Part shown: in pieces, positions 35,229 through 61,000 of the stretch
How positions within the stretch are numbered: position 1 is the first letter of the stretch
How the letters are laid out: every line of letters starts with the position of its first letter
From: Marchantia polymorpha subsp. ruderalis
Lineage: Eukaryota > Streptophyta > Marchantiopsida > Marchantiales > Marchantiaceae
DNA length: 64,000 nt
NCBI GenBank assembly: GCA_037833965.1
Contig: AP031351.1
Location: 23,014,501-23,078,500 of the forward strand
Direction: 5' to 3'
Made by a program: the position numbers and the translations under genes
The notes under the pieces: generated by a model
What the model saw: only the letters and a program-made list of their open reading frames with translations
Databases searched by the model: none
Told to the model about the DNA's origin: nothing

Positions 35229-35429
35229 TGTCTTTTTAACCTTATGAGAGTTAAAAGTTTAGATTTAAGCTCTTGCAAAGTTGTGCTTGGAGTTTTCTGG
35301 AAGTTTTGGCAAGATTAGGAGTTGGTGTAATAGTTAGTAGACAAAGGTGCGGAACGGGGCCTTCACGGCAGGGTCTCCGGCGAAGTGCCTTCGGTGAAGT
35401 TCCTTCGGGGAAAGGCCTTCGGCGAAACA

Positions 35430-36325
35430 GTGAAACCCTCATAACGTTTTCAATGTGTGATACCTTGACTCAGTTAGTGTCTTGTTGGAAAGAGCTCGCG
35501 ACGCTTGTTTCAACGAGACCAAGAAGTCTTGAAACGGATAAGGCATCACTGAGTTGTGAGTGTCGGAAGTTACTGATGGGAAGGGTTGAGGCGAGTTCGG
35601 CTTCGGACGTCGTTGGCTCCGGACGTAACGTTCGCGTCCGTCGGAAGTTCCGTCCGAACGGAACTTCGGATGGCTCCGGACGCCTTCGGCTGCGGACGTC
35701 TCCGGCTTCGGACGTCTTCGGCACCGGATGTCTCCGGCTTCGGACGCCTTCGGCTCCAGACGCCTTCGCGACAACTGCGAGCAGGCCTTCGGCAATACGA
35801 GGTCGGCGAACTCCGAATCGGCGAACTCGGGGTCGGCGAACTCCGAGCCGGTGAACATCGTGCAGGGGCCTTCGGGGAAAGGGCCATCGGCGAAACAGTA
35901 AAATCAGCATATCTTTTTCATTTGTTAACGGTTTGACTTGATTAGGGTCTCGTTGAAAAGAGCTTGTGACGCTCGTTCCAACGAGACCAAGAACTCTTCA
36001 AACGGATAAGTCGTCACTGAGTTATGAGCGTCGAAAGCGGCGGATAGGGTAGGACAACATCGTACCGGAGGATATCAAACCGGAAGACATCGAACCGGAA
36101 GACATCCAACCGGCGAACATCATGCGGGCACCTTCGGCGATAATAGATAACAGGCCCTCGGCGGTGTGCCTTCGGCGAAGGGTGAAACCGGCATAACTTT
36201 CGCAATTCGTAACGGGTTGACTCAGTTAGGGTCTCGTTGGAAAGAGCTCGACCTGTTCGTTCCAACGAGCCCAAGAACTCTTGAAACGGAGCAAAGATCC
36301 GTGAGTTATGGGTGTCGGGAGTGAC
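35430..36325 (+). repeat. Three copies of a ~140-bp dyad module (element A)
   Basis: Copies lie at about 35430-35575, 35893-36040 and 36181-36325. Each runs from a CATAAC/CATATC word, through a GTTTGACT- or GTTGACT-like segment, GTCTCGTTGGAAAGAGC, a short spacer, TTCCAACGAGACC or a close variant, AAGAACTCTTGAAACGG, to GAGTTATGAGCGTC. The two central words are inverted copies of each other, and the outer CATAACT and AGTTATG words are too. Further copies lie in B (about 46368-46505, 46803-46945), C (about 47995-48130), D (three, 53600-54500) and E (about 56628-56760). Confidence 0.8.
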
Positions 36326-36794
36326 TGTTATAGATAGGCAAAGGTGCGGTCGTGCGTCTTCGGCGGGTGGATGCCTTCGGCGGTGCGCGGAAGAAGATTC
36401 CCTCCGGCGGAGATCGGGTGGTCAGGAATGTAGAATGTACAGGTGTGGTGGCGGCGGCGGCGTGAAGTCGCGCAGGGGGAGCAGGCAGCTACCCATCATT
36501 GCGGGTGGGGCATGCAGGCGGGCTGTGGGTGTCTCGACCTTGGATTTTTGAGGTGGTGTGTTCGGCCTTGGAGCTGAGACCTGGTGGTGTGTTCGGCCTG
36601 GGAGCGGAGAGTTGGGAGTGTACCAGTGTGCGAGAGCTTGAGGTGTGCGTGTGTGGAGACGGAAGTGGTATCGGTCGTAGGATAGAGTGTGGTGTGAGCG
36701 ATTTTTCGCAGGGAAGTGGTGAGAGTTAGGAGGGGAGTGTGGAGAGTTTGAAGTAGGAGCAAGCAAACTCTCGTGGGTGGAGAGTTGTATCTGA

Positions 36795-46060: not shown

Positions 46061-48978
46061 CTCGATATATATCCTATATTTACTAGGGTTTGGGTCTACA
46101 GCCGCCAGCACCCGGCGGCGGATCCTTTAGGGTTCGGGTTGTGAGCACAAAACTGTGCTCACATGTCTTTTTACCCTTATGAGAGTTAAAATTTTGGATT
46201 TAAGCTCTTGCAAAATTATGCTTGGGGTTTTTCTGAAAGTTTTGGCAAGGTTAGGAGTTGGTGTGATGGTTAGGGGGCAAAAGGTGCGGAAGGGGGCCTT
46301 CGGGGCAAGGTCTTCGGCGAAGTGTCTTCGGTGAAGTCCCTTCGAGGAAAGGCCTTCGGCGAAACAGTGAAACCCTCATAACGTTTTCAATGTGTGACAC
46401 CTTGACTCAGTTAGTGTTTTGTTGAAAAGAGCTTGCGACGTTCGTTCCAACGAGACCAAGAACTTTTGAAACGGATAAGGCGTCATTGAGTTATGAGCGT
46501 TGAAAGCGGCTGACATGGTTAGGCGAAAGGCCTTTGGCGATAACAGGCCTTCAGCGATAACAGGCCTTCGGCGATACGACTTCGGTGGAAGACGCCTTCG
46601 TGCGGACCAACATCGTGCGGACCAACATTGTGCGGACGCCTTCGGCAGAAACGCCTTTGGCAAAGACACCTTCCGCGCGAATCGAACCGGAGGTGCAAAC
46701 GGAGATAGCAGGCCGGAAGATGAAGACACGTGTGCCTTCGGCGCAGGCGCCTTCGGCGATAATAGATAATAGGCCTTTGGCGGTGGAGGCCTTTGTCGGA
46801 GGAGTAAAATTGTGATAACTTTCTCAATCCTTAACGTTTTGACTTAGTTTGGGGCTCAATGGAAAGAGCTCAACACGCTCGTTTCAACGAGCCCAAGCAC
46901 GTTTCAAACAAAGCAGGGATCTGTGAGTTATGAGCGTCGGGGGTGACTGTTATAGAGAGGCAAAGGTGCGGAAGAGTGTCTTCGGCGGGGGATGCCTTCA
47001 GCGGTGCGCGGAAGAAGATTTCGGACGGCGGATGTTGACGTGGTCATGAATAAAGAATGTACAGGTGTGGTAGTGGCGGCGGCGTGAAGTCAAGCGTGGA
47101 AAATAGGACGGCGGGGCATAAAGTCTCACATGGGAACCAGGCCATTGCCCATCATCGCCAGAACGGCATTCAAGCGGCCTGCGGGCAACTCGGCCCTTGG
47201 ACGTTGGAGAGGATTATTCGGCCTGCGAGCTAGGATTGTGTGGGTGCCATTGTGTGGAGACGCTGGTGGGATCTGTAGGAGAAATTGGATGTGGATGTGA
47301 GTGATTTTCGCAGGGAAGTGATGAGAATTAGGAGGGGAGTGTGGAGAGTTAGAAGTAGGAGGAAGCAAACTCTCGTGGGTGGAGAGTCGTATCTGAGAGT
47401 GAAATTAAATGGGAGCTGAGATTGAAGTGTAAAATCTGGGAGTGGGAGCTGAAATCAAAGTGGAGGTTCTGAGAGTGGAAGTTGAAATCGAAGTGAAATC
47501 TGAGACTGAAATGTGACAGTCGGGATCTGAATTTGAAACAGAAAAGTGAGAGTTAAACTTGAGAGAGAAATCTGGTGGGACCTGAAGGTGGAAATAGAGA
47601 AATCGACACTGAAATCTAAGTAGAAATTGTGAGTGGGAGCTGAGATTGAAGTGTAAAATTTGGGAGTGGGAGCTGAGATTGAAGTGTGAAATCTGTGAGT
47701 GGGAGCTGAGATTGAAGTGTAAAATGTGGGAGTGTGGTACCCCACTTTTGGCAATTTTGAGGAAATTAAAACATTTTTGGAAAACTGTACCCTGGCAGCA
47801 TTGTAAATAGCCTTCGGTACATCAAAACAGAGTGAATCCGGAAGATCGCGGGGATTCTCGAGGGATCTTGTAGAATTTGGGATTTGGGGTGCCGCAGAAA
47901 GGACAGGCACCACCCTCCCTGCGAGCTCTGCAGTTAGGATCTCTACGGCGCAAGGCGCAAAACCCGCCTTCGGAGGTTGCGTCCGCGGCTGTAGGGAAAC
48001 CCCCGTAATTAGGTCAACCCTCGGGCGCCTTGACCAAGTTAGGATCCCGTTGGAAAGAGCTCGACGCATTGATTCCAACGAGCCCAAGAACGCTTGGAAC
48101 GGACGAGGACTTAGGGAGTTATCGCTACTGGAAGAAACGGAGGCGGTCGCCTACGGCGGAAGGAGTTCGCCACCGGTGCGAATTCCGCCTACGCGGAAGG
48201 GGGAATCAAGTTTTGTCCTATGCGCGGACGAAGGCGTTCGCCTGTGCACAGGCGAAGTAGGGTTAGGGAAGGCGCGAAGTCCGCCTACGCACAAGCGTTC
48301 GCCTGTGCACAGGCACTTCGGCGTCGGCGGGAAATCCGCCTTGGGCCCTAGAAATGCGCCTTGTGAGGTAGAAAGTGTACGGCGCCTTCCGCGCCAGCGC
48401 GGCGCCGCGTACGTCGGAAGAGCCGCCAGAGTAATCCAATCGGTACGGACCATGCGGACGGCACGGGTGGATGCGCTCTTGGACGGACGGAGTTGCGGCG
48501 GCGGAAGCGCCGACGGAGAGACAAGGAACGGACAGACTGGACGGAGACGGCTGACCACGGTCAACGCCTTCCGCGCCAGCGCAGCGCCGCGGACGGAATT
48601 CGCCTGCGCACAGGCGAACGCCTGTGCACAGGAGGATGTTCAAGTTCCGCGCCGGCGGAGGATCCGCCGAGGCTCCTGCCTGCGCACAGGCAGGAGTTGA
48701 ATTTTTGTCCGACATGCGGACACACGCGTCAAGGCAGAAGGAGATTGGCCGAGGGACGGTACGAACAAGTGTACCGCGCAAGGCGGAAAACTCGCCTTCG
48801 GCGCTACGCCCCCATGTCCACAGGGTGACACGCTCGCGGAGTTCAAATCCGCCAATTCGAGCGTGAGAGTTTAATCGACGACGGCGGAGCGTGAAGCCGC
48901 GCGTGAGAGCGAAGACCGTTCCAGCGTACAGCCGGCGCGGCCATCAAGTGAGACGTTCTTCACGACCAAGAGCCGACC

Positions 48979-49911
48979 ATGACCTTCGACCGGGCGGCGG
49001 AGAACGTCCCATTCTTGAATTCGCGATTCCAATCTCTTGTGCGCGCTGCGCGCATCCATCTGCTGGCTGCGGAACATTCTCGACGTCATCGCACAGGAGA
49101 TTTCTTGTTGATTGAGGGAGAAGTGAGTGCGCGTGATTTGGAATTGAGAGCGATTAGAGTTTGCCGAGAGAGAAAGAAACGCGGGCAGTGCGGAAGTAGA
49201 ATGAGCGGGCGAGCGAACCCCAGGAACGCAATGACGAGACCGAGCAGATTGCGGATGGTGCCACTTCGCCTGCCGCAGAACGGGCTGCGCGCTTTCGAGG
49301 AGCGCTTAATAGCAAGAAAGCTCGATTTCTTGCTATGGGGATGGAATTACATCTGTGCGAATATGGTGCGCGAGTGGCTAGAGCCACAGGGACCACCCTC
49401 GCGCGGATTGCGTCCGCATGTTGACCGGTGGACAGTCCAAGATTGGGCGCAGGCGTTGGGAAGATGTGCTGGCATGCCAGGGCATCTCCTTTTCGACAGT
49501 GAGAGTATCAAGGTGACCAAGCAAGAAGAGGCGCAATTTGTAGTGCTGTTCAAGACCAGGAGGTCTACCAAGAATGGGTACAGGACCCGTGATTACAAGG
49601 ATCGATTTCGCCGGACTTTGTCCGCGGCGCTGATGCAATTACTGCAGCCGCACCGCGCCTGCTACATCACATTGTGGCAGGTCTCTTTTGTGGAGTGCGT
49701 CATCGAGGGAACTCCAATTCACTGGGCGAGCATCCTGCACAGGGTGATGCGACAGCACGCGTTTGAGGAGAAGGGGGGAACTCTAAACCATCTTTCTCCT
49801 TTCCTCATCAATTTTTATCGACAGCGGAATTGTTTGACAGCGGCGGAGCTTGAACATTTTCCGCCATTGTCCATCGACCATCCCGGGAAGTATGAACGAG
49901 GTCGATACTGA
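48979..49911 (+). CDS. Element C ORF1: plant-mobile-domain-like protein
   Basis: The frame encodes 310 residues from an ATG at 48979. The first 90 residues are basic and Arg-rich. From about residue 100 on it looks like a folded domain with FEERLIARKLDFLLWGWNY, WTVQDWAQALG, an Asn-Gly-Tyr basic stretch, LQPHRACYITLWQVSFVECV, PIHWASILHRVMRQHAFEEK and LSPFLINFYRQRNCLT. The run of aromatic and 'SPFLINFYR'-type words resembles proteins encoded by plant retroelements and the plant mobile domain group; I do not know a biochemical activity. It overlaps the next ORF by 20 bases in the +1 frame, and the domain ends just before the overlap. The two may therefore have been one protein joined by a frameshift or split by a mutation. 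I recall liverwort proteins of this type being single chains, but cannot verify that here. Confidence 0.6.
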   Translation: MTFDRAAENVPFLNSRFQSLVRAARIHLLAAEHSRRHRTGDFLLIEGEVSARDLELRAIRVCRERKKRGQCGSRMSGRANPRNAMTRPSRLRMVPLRLPQNGLRAFEERLIARKLDFLLWGWNYICANMVREWLEPQGPPSRGLRPHVDRWTVQDWAQALGRCAGMPGHLLFDSESIKVTKQEEAQFVVLFKTRRSTKNGYRTRDYKDRFRRTLSAALMQLLQPHRACYITLWQVSFVECVIEGTPIHWASILHRVMRQHAFEEKGGTLNHLSPFLINFYRQRNCLTAAELEHFPPLSIDHPGKYERGRY

Positions 49912-51574
49912 TGCAGAGGAGTCACCGACTTCGACCCCATCAAGACGGAGGGACGAAGGGAGACACACCCCTGCAGCGCGAGTGCCGCGGAAGCGGCGAT
50001 GGAGGGAAGAGTCTGAAGAGGAGCAGCATCAAGAACCCTTTGCTCCCATTCGACCGCGGCCGCTGTGCGAGCCATACAGCCGGCCGAAGCAGAAGGCACG
50101 CAGACTGGTGTTGCCAGCTGACAGTGCAGACACGGCGACAATTGCGACGGAGATAGGAAGTGCGTCGCCAGAGAGGCGAGAGGAAGCGCGGACGACCGCA
50201 GGAGCGACGGGCCACGCTGCAACCTCGTCGGGAGAGAGGCCGCCTACGGGCCAAGGGCCTCCGGAGTTACCACGTGCGATGCGGACAGATGTTCCGTTTG
50301 CGCACAGGAGAACCTCCGCGGACGGACGAGCCTCCGCGGACCGGCGAACACAAGTGGACGTGGATCTACGCTTACGCGTAGGAAGGAGCAGTCCGCCTGT
50401 GCACAGGTCGCCTGTGCACAGGACACCTCCACACGTGCCGCCTGTGCACAGGCAAGAATCACCCCCGTTCCAACGTAGGAAGGGGAAGGAGCCGGCGGAA
50501 GAACCGCCTACGAGACACCGGCCCTCGGGGCCAGACCCTCCGGCGCACCACGCGCCGCAATTTGCGCCTTCGGCGCCAGGGCCTTCGAGCAGAGGAGATA
50601 CGAGCAGAGAGCGTGCGGAGGCCGCACCATCGGCGGGAAGTCCGCCGATAGATGCGCCTTCGGCGGTAGGGCCTATAGGCCAAAGAACATCGGGCGTGCG
50701 GCCCCCGGTCATGTCGCCTTCGGCGATAGATGTCCGCGGCGCTACGCCTGCGGCGGACAAGGCGCCGGCAAATGCGCCTGCGCACGGGGCGGGCACAGCC
50801 CCCACGGACCGATCAAGGGAGCAGCAGACGATGGAGCGGAGTGACTGTCCGCGGGATGAAATCTCGATGCGCGATGCGCAATCCAACCCCGCGCAGCCAC
50901 CCTCCGCTCGATCGCCTTCTGCGGCGGACGACGGCGACAGAGAGAACGCGGTAGGCAATCAACAAGCGAGCGACAGGGATGCCGCTCGGGTACATTCGCC
51001 TTCCGCCTTAGACATTTTGGCGACGAGCAGCGAGGCTGCAGCCGTGCCTTCGCAGGCAGCACACGTCGAGGACGTGCAGCCCCACTCGGGGCAGTCGCCG
51101 ACGCAATCAATGGCGACTGAAATTCTCCACTCGGATGATGACGACGGAGGCTCCACGGAAGAAATGTCAGGAGCAGAAGACACCGAGGAGGAGGAGGAGG
51201 AAATTGTTGGAGCGCCGGCGGCGGCGCTCTCTGAGCAGGTGATTCCGTTGCTGCGGTACTTGGATCGCAAGGTCGATAAATACGCCGACCCACTCCAGCC
51301 GGGATCTTACATCGAGTTAGTGCGCAGGCGGACTCGCACTAAAGTCCACACCAGCAAGCTATTAGCTAGAGTGGACCAGGAGTTGAGGGACTTGAAGGAG
51401 AAGCATGAGTGCTTGTGGGGTCAGTACAAGCTTAATCAGAAGTTCTACAAGCACACCGAGAAGATGAAGGATGAGAAACTGGGCGAGCTCACCAAGGAGC
51501 AGGTGAAGGTCAAGGAAGCACTCAACTCTGAGCAGGCCCATAATCGGATTTTGTCAGAGGAGCTCGTGCGATAG
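49892..51574 (+). CDS. Element C ORF2: Pro/Ser/Ala-rich, acidic, coiled-coil protein
   Basis: The first ATG of the frame is at 49892, giving 560 residues. The N-terminal part has a basic nuclear-localisation-like word (PRKRRWR, about 30-36). The middle 300 residues are low-complexity and rich in Pro, Ser, Ala, Arg and His, with PPVHR repeated where CGCCTGTGCACAGGCG-type palindromes are translated and APSA/SPSA where CCTTCGGCG words are translated. An acidic run (DTEEEEEE) follows near residue 430, then VIPLLRYLDRKVDKY and SYIELVRRRTRTK, and a Lys/Glu-rich coiled coil to the end. It stops at TAG (51572-51574), beyond which the same frame continues as coiled coil. No enzymatic motif, zinc knuckle or protease site is present. 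A structural or nucleic-acid-associated role is a guess. Confidence 0.6.
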   Translation: MNEVDTDAEESPTSTPSRRRDEGRHTPAARVPRKRRWREESEEEQHQEPFAPIRPRPLCEPYSRPKQKARRLVLPADSADTATIATEIGSASPERREEARTTAGATGHAATSSGERPPTGQGPPELPRAMRTDVPFAHRRTSADGRASADRRTQVDVDLRLRVGRSSPPVHRSPVHRTPPHVPPVHRQESPPFQRRKGKEPAEEPPTRHRPSGPDPPAHHAPQFAPSAPGPSSRGDTSRERAEAAPSAGSPPIDAPSAVGPIGQRTSGVRPPVMSPSAIDVRGATPAADKAPANAPAHGAGTAPTDRSREQQTMERSDCPRDEISMRDAQSNPAQPPSARSPSAADDGDRENAVGNQQASDRDAARVHSPSALDILATSSEAAAVPSQAAHVEDVQPHSGQSPTQSMATEILHSDDDDGGSTEEMSGAEDTEEEEEEIVGAPAAALSEQVIPLLRYLDRKVDKYADPLQPGSYIELVRRRTRTKVHTSKLLARVDQELRDLKEKHECLWGQYKLNQKFYKHTEKMKDEKLGELTKEQVKVKEALNSEQAHNRILSEELVR

Positions 51575-52090
51575 ACGCGGTTGTTGGAACAATGTCAGCT
51601 CGCACGGCAGGCGGATGAAGAATTAATCCGCAGGTTGCAGTCAGAGTGTGGCGAATTGAGAGCGCAACGTGCTGAAGCCGAATCGCAATTAGTGATGATT
51701 GAAGAGGATCGCAGGAAGGAGGCGGATCGCACGAAGGTGGAGACGGCGAGGCGAGTCGCCCACTGTCTCAAGGGCTACGCCCACTGGGAAGTGAAGGCGC
51801 AGGAGAAACTCACACTGCGTGAGTTTGAATTGCGCGCAGCCGGGTTGTTGTCAGGCGACAGTAGGAGTCGGCGGAAGGTAGCGAAGAAGCTTGAAGCCTT
51901 TCTGTCGAAGGCACAGGATACCATGTCCACCCTCGAGGGGGAGGTGTCCGCGGCGTTGCAGCGGTTGGGACTGCGCAGTCGAGCGGAAGAGTGGCAGGGT
52001 AGGGAGTTAGTGCGCGGCAGTCGGCCGTGCAGGAGACGCAGTACAGGTTCCGCGGAGTGTAGTGTAGCGTGGTTCCGTGCAGGCGTGTAG
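51575..52090 (+). pseudogene. Element C: in-frame coiled-coil continuation after TAG
   Basis: The frame of ORF2 continues directly after its TAG stop for 171 codons to 52088-52090, without an ATG near its beginning. It is strongly helical and Glu/Arg/Gln-rich (LEQCQLARQADEELIRRLQ and following), extending the coiled coil of ORF2. The stop is therefore most easily explained as a CAG to TAG change in a longer ancestral protein of roughly 1,000 residues, or as a readthrough stop. The end lies just before the TATA box of the element. Confidence 0.55.
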
Positions 52091-52100
52091 CGTAGTGCAG

Positions 52101-53101
52101 TGTAGTGCTAGGTAGGACTTAGAAGGTATAAAATATTTCCAGGCGTTTTGCCTGGGGTTCTTTCCCATCAGAAGTGCAGATCAGGAACCCATTTCCTTTG
52201 CGTGTTTGTGTCCTTGAGTTCTGTCACCACGCACGAGGAGTTACAACTTAGCGTTCCGCATTTTGTAGCTGAAGGCCTTCGGCCGAATGTTCAGAGCTAG
52301 TCCATTGGTTAGAGACTTGAGTAGTTCGGATCTGCACCTGCGGGTGACTGCCGATGCTCAGAGCCAGTGACTAGTTAGATACTTGAACAGTTTCGCCCCT
52401 ACACCTTCGAGTGTTTCTTTCTGATTGTACTCCTTGGGATTTTTCCCCTGAATGCCAAAGTGAAGTTTTGCTACTTCGTGTAAGCCTTGGTTGTAAATTC
52501 AGGTTACGCTGCAGCAGGTGCCTTGAGGGTAACCCCTGTAGTATTTCTGGGAATGACAAGTGCCTGAGAATTCAAACTCTTCAATAGACTGTTGTTGTGT
52601 TACTAGGATGTTTCACAGTGAGTCCTTCAGTGCGGACCTGTGTTCTCTGCGCGTTTTGTGAGTTGAGAGTGTTGTTCACCGCGTAGGAGTGACTTCGATC
52701 CGAAGTAGGCAGTCCAAACCGGGTTTCCTACACTAGCAGCAAGCTAGTGGAAGTGTTGTAAAAGCCGGAGTTGGAAGTCACTGCCCGCAGCTTTGCCGAG
52801 TGTGCTCGTGAGAGACTTTCCCCCTGAAATCTTGAAGTAGAGGTCCTAACGGATCTCTGGGTTGTGTTTCTGTAGTTTCAGGTGTGTGTGTGTGTGTGTG
52901 TGTTACGCTGCACTGTGCGACCTCCGAGTGCGCTCCGAGTGGACACTTGCAGTATTTCTGGGAGTGACAGTCGCCTGAGAATTCAAACTCCTCAATAGTC
53001 TGTTAAAACGTGACACTTTGTACCCTGTGTGTTCCTCTGTCCCTGTGGGTTCGACCTTTCTACCACTATATTGCAGTTTTAGCCTTTAGTGGGTTATTAC
53101 A
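52101..53101 (+). repeat. 1-kb segment shared by C and D (R-U5-like)
   Basis: This 1,001-bp segment and 54909-55906 in element D are nearly identical over their whole length. It contains an internal duplication: 52504-52593 and 52903-53004 share TTACGCTGCA, GTATTTCTGGGA, GCCTGAGAATTCAAACTC and TCAATAG. It also has a second, shorter duplication (about 52287-52345 and 52356-52414) and a (TG)n run at 52882-52902, shorter in D. Confidence 0.9.
52127..52134 (+). promoter_or_regulatory. TATA box of element C
   Basis: TATAAAAT lies 26 bases into the 1-kb segment that C shares with D. The equivalent in D is TATAAAG at 54935-54941. A conserved TATA about 970 bases before the 3' end is what the U3/R boundary of an LTR would show, and it points away from the coding region upstream. 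Confidence 0.6.
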
Positions 53102-53382
53102 GGGAGTGGGAGCTGAAATCGAAGTGTAAAATCTGTGAGTGGGAGCTGAAATCAAAGTGGAAGATCTGAGAATGGGAGCTGAGAGTGAAGTGAAATCGAC
53201 ACTAAAATCTGAGTAGGAATTGGGAGTGGGACTCGGAGCTAGGATAGACCACAGCGGTTGTGGTATTGAGAAAGTCACCCAGAGTTGGTTTAGATCTTTA
53301 TGTAACAAAGAGCTTGTCTGCTGCTCTTGTGGAAATAGTAGACAGCAAGTTATTGTTTTCAGGTCTGGATAATTTATCTGTG

Positions 53383-55906
53383 TGTGGTAACCCACTTTTT
53401 GTTTTTTGTCGGAACTAAAACATTTTTGAATAGTAAGTACCGCGGCAGCAGCTGTAAATAGTAATCGGTACGCGAAACCAGAGTAAAAAGAGGATCGAGG
53501 ACAATCAAGGGGTTCTGGTCTTAGGCCACAGTGGGACGCTTGGGACGGAACGGGCGGTTCATACTGCAGGATCCGCTTCGAGCACCTTCGGCGGTAGATC
53601 ACTCATAACTTTCTCAATTCGTAACGTTTTGAGTTGCTTTGGGTCTTGTTGGAAAGAGCTCAACGCGCTGGTTCTAACGAGCCCAAGAACTTGTGAAACG
53701 GATGAGAGGTCACTGAGTTATAAGTGTCGGAAATTACTGATGGGGGGCGTTCGGCGGTAGAGCGACTTTGGCGGTACGCCTTCGGCGGAAGAACCGCCGG
53801 AAGATGCGCCTTCGGCGGTAGACGCCTTCGGGTCAACGCCTTCGGCGATGCGGGAGAGTGCATTCGGCGGAAGAGTAAATCCCTCATAACTTTCTCAATT
53901 CGCAACGCCTCGACTTGGTTAGGGTTTCGTTGGAAAGAACTCGACGCGCTGATTCTAACGAGCCCAAGAACGCCACGAACGGAGGAGAATTCCGGGAGGT
54001 ATGAAGGTCGCAAGATACTTAGCTTTCCGCCTGCGCAAAGGCGAAGAAAGTTTTGTCCTATGCGCGGACGAAGGAAGTTCGCCTGCGCACAGGCGAAATA
54101 GGGTTTTGATGTAGGCGCGAAGTTCGCCTACGCACAGGTGTTTGCCTGTGCACAGGCGCTTCGGCGTCGGCGGGAAATGCGCCTTCGGACCTAGAAATGC
54201 GCCTTCGAGTTTGCAACTTGTACGGCGCCAGCGCAACAGCGCAGAAGTAGGCGGACGCCTGTGGATAGGCTGCCTGTGCACAGGCGGACGGCCTGTGGAT
54301 GGACGGCCTGTGGGTAGGATGCGGACGCATGCGGATAGGCGAACACCTTCGGCGGAAGAGTAAAACCGTCATAACTTTTTCAATTCTTAACGGTTTGACT
54401 TGATTAGGGTCTTGTTGGAAAGAGCTCGCAACGCTCGTTTTAACGAGACCAAGAACTCTTGAAACGGATAAGGCCTCACTGAGTTATGAGCGTCGAAAGC
54501 GGCTGTCATGGTTAGGAGAGAGGCCTTCGGCGTTAACAGTTAGAGGGGCCTTCGGCCCAAGGCGGCCTGCGAGTAGGCGGCTTGCGTGTAGGACGCGTGG
54601 GACCCACAGTCCTCGGATTTTGGAGAAGGAATTTTGGCCTAGGTTCAGAGATCTTGCGGGGCCCATATCTTTGCGATGGACGGTCGGATGGATCTGAAAT
54701 TTTGTGGGGCCGTTGATCTCGGCCGGCCACGCATGCTTGCAAATTTTCAGACTCAGATCTTGGATGGAAAGGCGCTGGCGGCTCTGTACAGTAGGCTTAG
54801 GATTCAGATTTAGGGTTAGGGTAAGATTTAGGTTGTAAGTTAGAGGGGAAGGCAGCCGCCGACTCCTCAGATGTAGGATCTGTTGCGGCTCGCACCAGGG
54901 CATTGCAGTGTAGTGTTAGTTAGGACTTAGAAGGTATAAAGTAGTTCAAGGCGTTTTGCCTTGGGTTCTTTCCCAGTTTCGGAAGTGCAGATCAGGAACT
55001 CATTTTCCCTGCGTGTTTGTGTCCTTAGTTCTGTCACCACGCAAGGGGAGCTACCACTTGGCGTTCCGCATTTTGTAGCTGAAGGCCTTAGGCCGAATGT
55101 TCAGAGCTAGTACATTGGTTAGAGACTTGAGTAGTTCGGATCTACACCTGCGGGTGATTGCCAATGCTCAGAGCCAGTGACTAGTTAGATACTTGAATAG
55201 TTTCGCCCCTACACCTTCGAGTGTTTGTTCCTGATTGTACTCCTGCGGGATTTTTCCCCTGAATGCCAAAGTGAAGTTTTGCTACTTCGTGTAAGCCTTG
55301 GTTGTAAAGTCAGGTTACGCTGCAGCAGGTGCCTTCAGGGTAACCCCTGTAGTATTTCTGAGAATGACAAGTGCCTGAGAATTCAAACTCTTCAATAGAC
55401 TGTTATTGTGTTACTAGAATGTTTCTCAGTGAGTCCTTCAGTGCGGACCTGTGTTCTCTGCGCGTTTTGTGAGTTGAGAGTGTTGTTCACCGCGTATGAG
55501 TGACTTCGATCCGAAGTAGGCAGTCCAAACCGGGTTTCCTACGCTAGCAGCAAGCTAGTGGAAGCGTTGTAAAAGCCGGAGTTGGAAGTCACTACCCGCA
55601 GCTTCGCTGAGTGTACTCTTGAGAGACTTCCCCCCTGAAATCTTGAGTAGAGGTCCTAACGGATCTCTGGGTTGTGTTTCTGTAGTTTCAGGAGTGTGTG
55701 TGTGTGTGTTACGCTGCACTGTGCGACCTCCGAGTGCGCTCCGAGTGGACACTTGCAGTATTTCTGGGAGTGACAGTCGCCTGAGAATTCAAACTCCTCA
55801 ATAGTCTGTTAAACGTGACACTTTGTACCCTGTGTGTTCCTCTGTCCCTGTGGGTTAGACCTTTCTACCACTATATTGCAGTTTTAGCCTTTAGTGGGTT
55901 ATTACA
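53383..55906 (+). mobile_element. Element D: solo-LTR-like relative of C without the coding region (TSD CTGTG)
   Basis: It starts TGTGGTAACCCAC and ends GTGGGTTATTACA, with a perfect 5-bp duplication CTGTG (53378-53382 and 55907-55911). Joining the flanks restores the sequence of element A at the equivalent point. The 2,524-bp unit has a left part related to C and E but clearly diverged, three dyad modules, micro-palindromes (CGCCTGCGCACAGGCG near 54082 and variants to 54300), a TATA at 54935 and the 1-kb right part shared with C. No long frame is present in the middle, where C has its coding region. Confidence 0.85.
53600..54500 (+). repeat. Three dyad modules of element D
   Basis: Copies lie at about 53605-53735, 53880-54010 and 54362-54495. 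The central words keep pairing potential although they vary: GTCTTGTTGG in one copy still pairs with AACGAGAC through a G-U pair at RNA level. Confidence 0.75.
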
Positions 55907-56141
55907 CTGTGAAAGAGCAAGTGTTTAGGATCTTGTTGTCTTGGATACACTTAGAGCACATGGCTTGAGTTCAGCGAAGTTAGATTATGGGAGCTCGAAC
56001 CCCCACTTGGACTACAAACGCTGAAGGGTGGGGAGTTTAGGCTCACACGGGTTGAGTACAGGGCTCGACCCGAACCCGACCCGTACCCAACCCGAACTCG
56101 GGTTTTTGGGTTCTACCCGAACCCGATCGGAGCCCTAGATC

Positions 56142-56363: not shown

Positions 56364-57174
56364 TGTGGTACCCCACTTTTGGCAATTTTGAGGAAATTAA
56401 AACATTTTTGGAAAACTGTACCCTGGCAGCATTGTAAATAGCCTTCGGTACATCAAAACGGAATGAATCCGGAAGATCGCGGGGATTCTCGAGGGATCCT
56501 GTAGAATCTGGGATTTGGGGTGCAGCAGTAAGGACAGGCACCACCCTCCCTGCGAGTTCTGCAGTTAGGACCCCTACGACGCAAGGCGCAAAACCCGCCT
56601 TTGGAGGTTGCGTCCGCGGCTGTAGGGAAACCCTCCATAATTAGGTCAACCCTCGGGCGCCTTGACCAAGTTAGGGTCCCGTTGGAAAGAGCTCGACGCA
56701 CTGATTCCAACGAGCCCAAGAACGCTTGGAACGGATGAGGACTTAGGGAGTTATCACTATTGGAAGAAACGGAGGCGGTCGCCTACGGCGGAAAGAGTTC
56801 GCAACCGGCGCGAATTCCGCCTACGCGGAAGGGGGAATCAAGTTTTGTCCTATGCGCGGACGAAGGCGTTCGCCTGTGCACAGGCGAAGTAGGGTTAGGG
56901 AAGGCGCGAAGTCCGCCTACGCACAGGCGTTCGCCTGTGCATAGGCGCTTCGGCGTCGGCGGGAAATCCGCCTTGGGCCCTAGAAATGCGCCTTGTGAGG
57001 TAGAAAGTGTACGGTGCCTTCCGCGCCAGCGCAGCGCCGCGTACGGCGGAAGAGCCGCCAGAGTAATCAAATCGGTACGGACCATGCGGACGGGACGGGT
57101 GGATGCGCTCTGGGACGGACGGAGTTGCGGCGGCGGAAGCGCCGACGAAGAGACAAGGAACGGACAGACTGGAC
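56364..57174 (+). mobile_element. Element E: left part of a C-like element, cut by gypsy F
   Basis: It begins TGTGGTACCCCAC and follows element C closely for 811 bases, including one dyad module and the CGCCTGTGCACAGGCG palindromes. Similarity stops abruptly after GACTGGAC, where the gypsy LTR begins. The remainder is expected on the far side of the gypsy element, outside the window. By eye E is much closer to C than D is. Confidence 0.8.
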
Positions 57175-58055: not shown

Positions 58056-61000
58056 CTACGCCCTCGGAGTGAAAGAATCTGATCTTCGATGGAATAACTT
58101 CAACTTGTCGTGGTTGACTCGATCGAAGTGACGTCCTCCTAACTCCTTGATGTCATAAGTGAAATTTCCCCACACCTTCTCAACTATGAAAGGTCCAAAA
58201 TACTTAGGAAGAAACTTTTTCCTAGCTCTCTTGTATCTAATTGCATCAAAGAGCATCACCCAATCACCTTCCTTGAACGGTTTCAAGTTCTGGTTTCCAC
58301 TTCGTTTGTCGTGATACTTCTTCTGCAACTGTTGAGCCCGCTCCACTCGTACCATGGCTAGTGCTCGAGCTTCCTCCAACTCCATCAATTGTTGTTGGCG
58401 AGACTTGATGGCTTCTGCTCCATTTGATTTCTTCAACCTTTGCTGGATTGTTGTGAATGTTGTCAAGTCAAACTGTATGGGAAGTTTTGACTCAACTCCA
58501 TACACCATCCGAAAAGGTGAGTATCCAGTAGATGTCTTCCATGTTGTGCGATACTCCCATAAGATAGCATGGAGCCTCTTGTCCCAATTGTGTTTACTCC
58601 CGTCCATGTCTGCATCCTTGGCCAACATCATACACAAAGTGTAGTTGGTCCGCTCCGCCAACCCATTAGCGTTAGGTTTGTAGGAAGTGGTCACTCGAGC
58701 CTTGATGGAAAAGTGCTCCAACATGGCTTGAATCATACTTCCCACAAATTCTCCTCCTCTATCTGATACTAACTCCAATGGACAACCAAATCGAGTAATG
58801 ATTCTCTCATATAAAAATCTACCAACCTCCTTCTCATTAGTAGATTTAAGTGGTCTTGCCTCTACCCACTTCGTAAGATAATCTGTAGCTATCACAATGA
58901 ACTTATTCCCTCGAGGAGTAAGATTCAAAGGACCTACAAAATCTATTCCCCACTTTTCAAAAGGACCTAACACTGGTACAGAAATCATAGGAGGGGTTTT
59001 CATGGACTTTTTAGCAAAAGCTTGACACACATCACAACTTTTGCAATATTCCACACAATCCTTAAAAATACCCTTCCAATGATAACCAGCATCAAGAATT
59101 TTGAAGGCAGTTACCTTCCCCGCAAAATGTCCTCCACATACTGCACCATCATGAAACTCCTTCATGAGTTGTAATGCCTCTCCTCTCCCAACCGCCCTTC
59201 GTAGAAGTCCGTCAGCTCCTTGATGAAAAAGTACCTTCTCCATGATCATATATGGTTGACATCTCTTCACTAATGCATTTTTCTCCCTTTGATGCATTCC
59301 TTGAGAAAACTCTCCTTTAGAGATGAAATCCCAAATTTCCTTGTACTCCTCCGGTACTGTTGTCACCGTGTCCATGACTAGCAAGTCCTCATCCGGAAAG
59401 GTGTCATCTACTGACTGATCTCCTCCATCATCATATGCTCTCGACATCAAATCCGCATTAGCATGCTTCTTTCCAGGTCTATCCTCAATGGTATAATCAA
59501 ACTCTGCTAGTAGTAGCTTCCATCTAGCTATCCTCCCTTCAGCATTAGGCTTGTTGAAAATGTATTTCAAAGCCTTATGATCAGTCACTATAGTGAATCT
59601 CCCACCCAACAAATAATGTCGAAACTTCTTAAGTGAGAAGATTACAGCTAACGCCTCTCTCTCTGTCACTGAGTAGTTCTTCTCCGCTTGAACCATTTGT
59701 CTACTAGCATAGGCAATTGGATGATCATGCTTTTCATCATCTAATTGACTCAAGGTGCATCCTACAGCAATATTTGATGCATCTGTGTAGAGAATGAAAG
59801 GTTTACCCCAATCCGGTTTCGCCAAAATTGGAGCCGTCACCAACGCCTTCTTGAGAACTTCGAACGCCGTCTTTGCAGCTTCATCCTTGAAAATGAGTTC
59901 GTACTCCACTCCCTTCTTCATGTAATTTGTCAAGGCATGAGCTTTGTTGGAGAAGGACAAGATGAACCGTCGATAGTACCCCACCATACCAAGGAATTGC
60001 CTCAACTTGGTTAAAGTCGCCGGAAAAGGTAACTCCATGATCCGTGTCACCTTCTCTGGGTCCACCGCTATACCATTCTTGGAGATGATATGCCCCAACA
60101 ATAGGCCTTCCTCACATCCAAAAATGCATTTTTCTGGATTGAGTGAAGCCTTAGCTTCCTCCAGCCGTTGAAGTATTTTGATCAAATGATCAAAATGATC
60201 CGCTTTCCTCCCGTAAACACAAAAATCATCTATGAAATCCCTTACAAACTTTCCAATGAAAGGTTCAAACACTCTATTCATGAACCTTTGAAAAGTGGCA
60301 GGAGCATTACATAGACCAAACGGCATCACTCTAAAAGCGAAGGTTCCCCATGGAGTAGTAAAAGTTGTTTTGAGTTGGTCTTCTAAGGCAATTTGGATTT
60401 GGTTATAGCCACTATAACCATCTCCAAAACTATACCACTCATGGCCAGCAACCTCCTCTAGAATCTCATCTATGAAAGGCAAGGGATAGTAGTCTTTCTT
60501 TGTGACAGCATTCAACTTTTTGTAATCTACGCACACTCGTAGCTTACCATTCTTCTTCTTCACTATCACAATTGGAGACACCCATTCAGAATTTTCTACC
60601 TCGTAGATGAAGCCAGCCTCCTTGAGCTTGTCGATCTCCTCCTTCACCACAAGAGCCGTAGGTGGATTTATTCGGCGTTGCTTTTGCCGAATAGGACGAG
60701 CTTTCTCCTCCAACTCGATGCGATGAGTCTCCAACGTCACATGCTTAAGATCCTTGTAACTAAAGGCAAAAACATGAATATATTTGCGAAATATATCCAG
60801 AAACTTTGCCTTTTCCTCCTTGGTAACCTTGGGACCAAACCTGAGAGTGGACAGTCGTCGACACACCTCCTCTTCGCTCATCTCCACTTTGTCAGGATCT
60901 TTCTTCACTCCAGGCCTAGGCAACAACTCCATGGCAGCAATGACTTGTACTTGAACATTATCATCAGAAGAGTACTCCGATGATGTTTCTTGATCAGAAG

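Follow-up and report, generated by a model that had tools for sequence, protein, structure and literature searches.

In the stretch of Marchantia polymorpha subsp. ruderalis DNA analyzed here (64,000 nucleotides, hereafter the window), the unit at 47733-53101 is a complete, solo long terminal repeat (LTR) of a Ty3/gypsy retrotransposon, and its U3 (unique 3') region holds the remnants of a gene that is intact in most of the other copies examined. The best explanation overall is a young, high-copy Ty3/gypsy element with a 5.4-kb LTR, whose U3 carries a 1,039-codon sense gene before its own TATA box; this gene is probably expressed as an accessory protein. The element class is an ordinary one, while the gene lies in an unusual place and its protein has no match among known families.

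A solo LTR and its full-length relatives

The features of the unit and of two related pieces are listed below by position in the window, with the strand in brackets.

47728-47732 (no strand): left copy of the target-site duplication, 5 bp (GGGAG), in a flank that is itself GGGAG-rich
47733-53101 (+): solo LTR of a Ty3/gypsy retrotransposon, 5,369 bp; 24 copies, three pairs enclosing gag-pol
47733-48978 (+): 5' part of U3, forming the leader of the gene; contains five CCTG(T/C)GCACAGG palindromes
48979-49911 (+): first remnant of the U3 gene, 310 aa from ATG to TGA; N-terminal part
49892-51574 (+): second remnant, in the frame continuing the gene and ending at an in-frame TAG; proline/serine/arginine-rich middle, acidic patch and beginning of the C-terminal part
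51575-52090 (+): third remnant, in the frame of the second; heptad-rich C-terminal part with the gene's own stop (TAG)
52096-53101 (+): conserved tail (TATA box, R and U5), ~95% identical among the LTR family of the window, one sister LTR and element D
52127-52133 (+): TATA box (TATAAAA), the sole TATAWAW-type box of the LTR
53102-53106 (no strand): right copy of the target-site duplication, 5 bp (GGGAG), read at the 3' end of the unit
53383-55906 (+): element D, a solo LTR of ~2.5 kb without the U3 gene (53378-55911 with its CTGTG duplication)
56364-57174 (+): piece 96% identical to the first (5') 811 bp of the window LTR

The unit starts with TGTGGTACCC at 47733 and finishes with GGTTATTACA at 53101, which are ends of the TG...CA type. 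Because the surrounding repeat is GGGAG-rich, the GGGAG duplication at this locus is weak evidence by itself. The question is settled by the other copies. The genome (241 Mb in 9 contigs), in which one LEAFY SAM-domain match points to a land plant, was searched with the 5.4-kb unit, and 24 scored places, counting the window copy, were each taken with 300-bp flanks. These copies are 97-98% identical, and two of them lack part of the unit. A perfect 5-bp duplication brackets six of them, which are solo LTRs (L001, L005, L007, L015, L021 and L022). The polypurine tract AGGAGGGGGGCA adjoins the 5' side of 10 copies and the primer-binding leader TAAGAAGCC(G/A)AC the 3' side of eight, with both present at L016. 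Only L003 adjoins neither, and its outer pentamers agree at 4 of 5 bases.

Three pairs of units enclose 5.8 kb of internal sequence (L025, L026 and L027), one of these elements having its 5' LTR cut. Since the paired LTRs differ at only 6 of 5,377, 9 of 5,371 and 5 of 4,901 aligned bp, the three full elements are young. The outer duplications match in the two elements with complete ends (AAAGT and GGCGT). The internal domain contains gag and pol open reading frames (ORFs) only. In L025, the one of the three internal domains in which domain order was read, Pfam recognized gag with CCHC zinc knuckles and an aspartic protease, followed by reverse transcriptase (RT), RNase H and integrase. This order, together with the TG...CA LTR pair, the 5-bp duplication, the primer-binding site and the polypurine tract, assigns the element to Ty3/gypsy. 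No chromodomain after integrase was present among the Pfam matches of L025 pol at E values up to 0.1, and the RNase H of this element matched retroelement RNase H models only. Tat-type clades have been reported in Marchantia, and an element with an additional RNase H was not detected in two liverworts, according to an excerpt of PMC10508981.

The gag-pol region lies between two units, and the primer-binding site and polypurine tract are found beyond them; the unit is for this reason an LTR. The initial annotation had read TG...CA ends and GGGAG duplications from the window and had offered, as one of two readings, a solo LTR with a coding region in U3; both statements hold, and the TG/CA ends and 5-bp duplications recur at the boundaries of other copies. 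Its alternative, an unclassified element type with integrase-like ends, was rejected as superfluous, the unit being the LTR of a gag-pol element. We give next to no credence to the idea that the ORF belongs to the internal part of an element whose LTRs are shorter: no point in its support was found, and it is already contradicted by the gag-pol region between two 5.4-kb units in three elements and by the primer-binding leader and polypurine tract beyond the unit.

The primer-binding site TGGCGCCGCTGCCGGGGA is complementary to host tRNA-Asp, whose 3' part with the matching GCAGCGGC occurs at 29 genomic sites; ARAGORN gave tRNA-Asp(gtc) at both sites checked. In all three elements this site begins 22 nt past the LTR end, which is farther than usual, and an AAGAAG...CTTCTT hairpin lies between the two, within the first 40 bases after the 5' LTR (L025-L027). 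As the LTRs end in TTACA at the outer junctions too, trimming of ~22 nt at the U5 end would be needed ahead of integration, an unusual step.

Some further observations concern the internal domain. Gag-protease and RT-integrase share one frame in L025, L026 and L027, with a single TAG between them in the context UAG CAA UUA. Because this context fits CAR YYA, given in the cited passage as the consensus after UAG for tobacco mosaic virus readthrough (PMC2754532), pol of these elements is probably made by TAG readthrough. Moreover, U3 genes occur in tandem at constant spacing at C6:28269189-28359357 (11,156 bp, with one double step), C4:14582509-14628189 (11,190 bp), C4:20818876-20853394 (~11,200 bp) and C9:14392205-14415435 (11,155 bp), a spacing as expected of putative LTR-internal-LTR-internal arrays. 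In the window itself, a minus-strand fragment at 60278-60588 resembles the element's pol region (~65% identity over 316 bp) and is probably a remnant of another gypsy element.

The U3 gene and its constraint

One ORF of 1,039 codons, starting at a common ATG (48979 in the window), is found in 20 of the 24 copies and is broken in four (the window copy, L003, L007 and L008). The window copy held a single gene, from the ATG at 48979 to the stop at 52090, which has been disrupted by a frameshift and an in-frame stop. The three-part coding region of the initial annotation is hence coding as proposed, although its parts are the decayed pieces of one gene. The same annotation had described a TATA box and a 1-kb tail in common with element D, and these were recovered as the TATAWAW box at 52127 and a tail identity of 95.8%. 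The stop of the gene lies ~40 bp upstream of TATAAAA, and R would start ~25-35 bp downstream of this box. The gene is assigned to U3 because the genomic RNA should start after the TATA box, with the start of R estimated from the box.

Four of the six solo LTRs that have perfect duplications also keep the gene intact. A search with the first 310 residues gave stop-to-stop open frames of at least 1,000 codons in 100 of the best-scoring 128 copies; these were drawn from 8,255 first-look candidates, so that the counts are lower bounds, and as the best matches they are biased to good copies. Dinucleotide shuffling of one LTR copy (300 trials) yielded longest open frames of up to 421 codons (mean 214), compared with 1,048 in the real sequence.

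The initial annotation had raised dN/dS as a way to judge whether the frame is conserved, and several comparisons agree that it is. Polymorphisms shared by at least two of the 20 intact copies comprise 52 nonsynonymous (N) and 87 synonymous (S) changes, against 95.7 and 43.3 expected when the same mutations are placed at random with CpG context kept and one stop-codon change dropped (ratio 0.27). The corresponding ratios in the two wrong frames, computed without CpG classes, are 1.58 and 2.45. Singletons (86 N and 72 S) give a weaker ratio of 0.55, as would follow if some of these changes postdate insertion. Between the three full elements, taking one LTR each, dN/dS of the U3 gene is 0.25, 0.21 and 0.16, next to 0.25 for gag-pro (one pair) and 0.06-0.08 for pol.

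A sister LTR family extends this comparison. Its solo LTR (L059, L028 and L060; contig C5, 24.70-24.71 Mb) has its own TG/CA ends and a CTGAA duplication, and carries a U3 gene at the corresponding position, with 61-73% protein identity in three pieces. The sister gene has decayed, showing a change of frame and, within the aligned pieces, three stops. Over 917 codons, the gene of the window family and this one decayed copy, which stands for the sister family in the selection test, differ with dS 0.58 and dN 0.17 (ratio 0.29). By region, the ratio is lowest at residues 720-800 (0.11) and 100-310 (0.14), and it is highest (0.63) in the low-complexity middle (538-720). Judged by these comparisons, the U3 gene is under purifying selection comparable to that on the element's own gag-pro.

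Querying the genome with a sister fragment gave 142 scored places; the best was the query's own locus, and the others are 88-95% identical, some of them with stops. The sister solo LTR on C5 is interrupted by L003, a member of the window LTR family whose outer pentamers share 4 of 5 bases, as a nested insertion. On contig C1, at ~2.2-3.1 Mb, several matches to the D family and the sister gene recur three times with identical or near-identical scores, suggesting that this segment has been triplicated.

The predicted protein and explanations of the gene

The longest strongly constrained block of the U3 protein spans residues 100-310. Residues 311-720 consist of 57% P/S/A/G/R and 12% large hydrophobics and are followed by an acidic stretch; from this composition, the middle of the protein is predicted to be disordered. 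A simple count revealed heptad-like hydrophobic spacing at about residues 920-1,010 and in a short stretch near 15-50. Homology searches gave no family. Pfam had no match at E values up to 0.1 for either of the two larger remnants in the window copy, and the last part and a whole intact copy, scanned up to E 10, produced only matches far under the cut-offs. NCBIfam, searched with two of the three window parts, returned one meaningless match (E 0.36), and PDB contained no relative at E values up to 1. The Pfam scans likewise gave no match to Transposase_28, the plant mobile domain or Athila ORF-1. A relation of the N-terminal part to plant-transposon domains such as Transposase_32 was considered and found no support, as Pfam gave no such match up to E 10; a genome search for Transposase_32 found none, and the same search matched in no control genome either. 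Nine pattern matches to the protein in viral contigs were obtained, none of which was confirmed as a relative.

The following course of events is proposed, the number and fate of gene copies being deduced from standard reverse transcription. The genomic RNA, starting past the TATA box of the 5' LTR, would carry a single copy of the gene, located after pol within the 3' U3. Reverse transcription would copy it into both LTRs, and a solo LTR left by recombination would retain it. A separate mRNA would encode the protein; it would begin in, or be spliced into, the 1.2-kb U3 leader and end at the polyadenylation site of the LTR itself. Its product would be a non-membrane accessory protein with a constrained N-terminal domain, a disordered middle and a heptad-rich C-terminus. 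It may act for the element, most likely in its own transcription, silencing or particle assembly, and not as an envelope.

Several points weigh against this proposal. A promoter upstream of the gene is conjecture because the sole canonical TATA box lies after it. The 1.2-kb leader of the window copy contains seven ATGs upstream of the start codon, its last 160 bp being free of them, and the number is five to nine in 21 copies. Not every related element requires the gene: element D lacks it, and the full-length matches to D are about as short as D itself. In addition, copies within one element or tandem array are non-independent, so the selection statistics overstate the sample size.

Expression is the point on which a different account has to be taken seriously. 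The U3 gene may be a third gene like sag of mouse mammary tumour virus (MMTV) or nef of human immunodeficiency virus (HIV), produced by the full-length element alone through splicing of the genomic RNA from its 5' leader to the 3' U3, with solo LTRs as silent leftovers. We regard this as a fair contender with somewhat less than an even chance. The gene follows pol in the genomic RNA, within the 3' U3, which is the position of sag, and the only canonical TATA box is located after it. Promoters of sag are reported in the 5' LTR (including its U3/R junction), in env and inside U3, according to excerpts of PMC4667437. As sag uses several promoters, an internal promoter and splicing both have precedent, and nothing favors splicing over an internal U3 promoter.

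The remaining accounts concern the nature of the protein. In some plant elements, ORFs situated between pol and the 3' LTR have been suggested to encode an envelope-like protein, and the sense orientation of the U3 gene downstream of pol in the genomic RNA would suit this account. However, no membrane-span candidate was found (the top 19-residue Kyte-Doolittle mean is 1.14), and the charged composition and low-complexity middle also speak against an envelope, which makes this account very improbable. A functionless passenger, i.e., host or transposon sequence trapped in the LTR and spread by hitch-hiking, would accord with the lack of known domains in the Pfam and NCBIfam scans, with the gene-free element D and with the record of gene transduction by plant LTR retrotransposons (cited passages of PMC7264820). 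Nevertheless, it is already contradicted by the shared changes (52 N and 87 S, 0.27 of expectation, versus 1.58 and 2.45 in the wrong frames) and by dN/dS of 0.16-0.25 between elements and 0.29 to the sister, and we hold it to be barely credible. The retrotransposon with an expressed accessory gene in U3 thus remains the explanation that we favor.

Related repeats, palindromes and known systems

Element D and the window LTR have both ends in common and nearly identical tails, whereas their first 650 bp are only weakly similar (65.5%). No U3 gene is present in element D, where the longest sense open frame has 125 codons; the U3 protein gave only three low-complexity matches there (23-27 residues, E 0.006-0.11). 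A genome query that started one base inside the element yielded 13 full-length matches of at least 90% identity, D included, all ~2.5 kb long. Since D lacks the gene yet shares the tail and ends, either one branch acquired the gene or another lost it. A tail swap between families was considered and dropped, the tails of the window family, D and the sister all being ~95% alike.

Palindromes are abundant in these LTRs. With at most one mismatch, CCTGTGCACAGG occurs 13 times in the window versus 0.12 expected, always within LTRs of the window LTR's group (five in its leader, three in its gene, three in D and two in the piece at 56364-57174). At the same tolerance, CGCCTTCGGCG occurs 29 times versus 0.43 expected; it is also seen outside this group, at 35414-36382 and 46351-46758. 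Both motifs are found in low-complexity stretches of the coding region, and because the same palindromes build these parts of the gene, they may be merely spreading repeats. Leader columns in CCTGTGCACAGG are less variable than the others (diversity 0.0137 over 60 columns versus 0.0256 over 1,086 columns), which is the sole, weak hint of putative binding sites. One could imagine each LTR, solo ones included, as a free-standing selfish gene with its own promoter, gene and terminator in U3, whose protein, a sequence-specific regulator, would bind CCTGTGCACAGG and CGCCTTCGGCG so as to prevent silencing of the family or to support its transcription in trans, as a counterpart of VANC from the Arabidopsis VANDALs, which are DNA transposons. 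We consider this unlikely. VANC offers a functional analogy only, as an accessory protein paired with short repeated motifs in non-coding DNA (passages of PMC5735166).

MMTV is the best-known case of a gene arranged in this way, and the U3 gene may be called a plant counterpart of its sag by position only. This analogy was drawn in the initial annotation; the location in U3 bears it out, while homology finds no support in the Pfam, NCBIfam and PDB searches, and no Sag model appeared among the Pfam matches of the U3 protein up to E 10. HIV nef also extends into U3. Unlike MMTV, the carrier here is a plant Ty3/gypsy element with nothing but gag and pol ORFs in its internal domain, and the T-cell role of sag cannot apply in a plant. 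Sag is also about one third of the size of the U3 protein, which, unlike Sag, shows no detectable similarity to known families. Excerpts of PMC4667437 call LTRs ordinarily non-coding and set MMTV sag against this; in MMTV and its betaretrovirus relatives, the gene lies mostly in U3 and is therefore carried by solo LTRs, as in the present case.

Among plant elements, Ogre, Retand, Athila, Grande and RIRE2 are similar in being gypsy elements without a chromodomain match and with an extra gene of no assigned function, and LTRs of up to ~5 kb occur among non-chromoviruses (excerpt of PMC6317226). However, PMC7264820 and PMC11963269, in the cited parts, place such additional ORFs of plant LTR retrotransposons, those of the five groups above included, in the internal region, either ahead of gag or behind pol, whereas the present gene lies wholly inside the LTR. 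Retrosat2, RIRE3 and RIRE8 of rice resemble our element in having LTRs of at least ~3 kb together with an additional ORF0 without assigned function, but the relevant passage of PMC3485330 describes ORF0 upstream of gag-pol, not within the LTR. No plant precedent for a gene inside an LTR was found among the matches listed in our literature search, with subscription papers and preprints outside its scope. Three candidate precedents (PMC12037069, PMC4016481 and PMC11117352) use such wording for ordinary polyprotein genes or non-LTR elements, and PMC1560396 was a chance wording match.

A gene wholly inside a plant LTR would be doubled with each insertion and would survive solo-LTR formation, a common erasure route. 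LTRs with a U3 gene may thus serve as a test case for expression from solo LTRs and for the role of extra retrotransposon genes, and repeat annotation that takes LTRs as non-coding may overlook genes of this kind.

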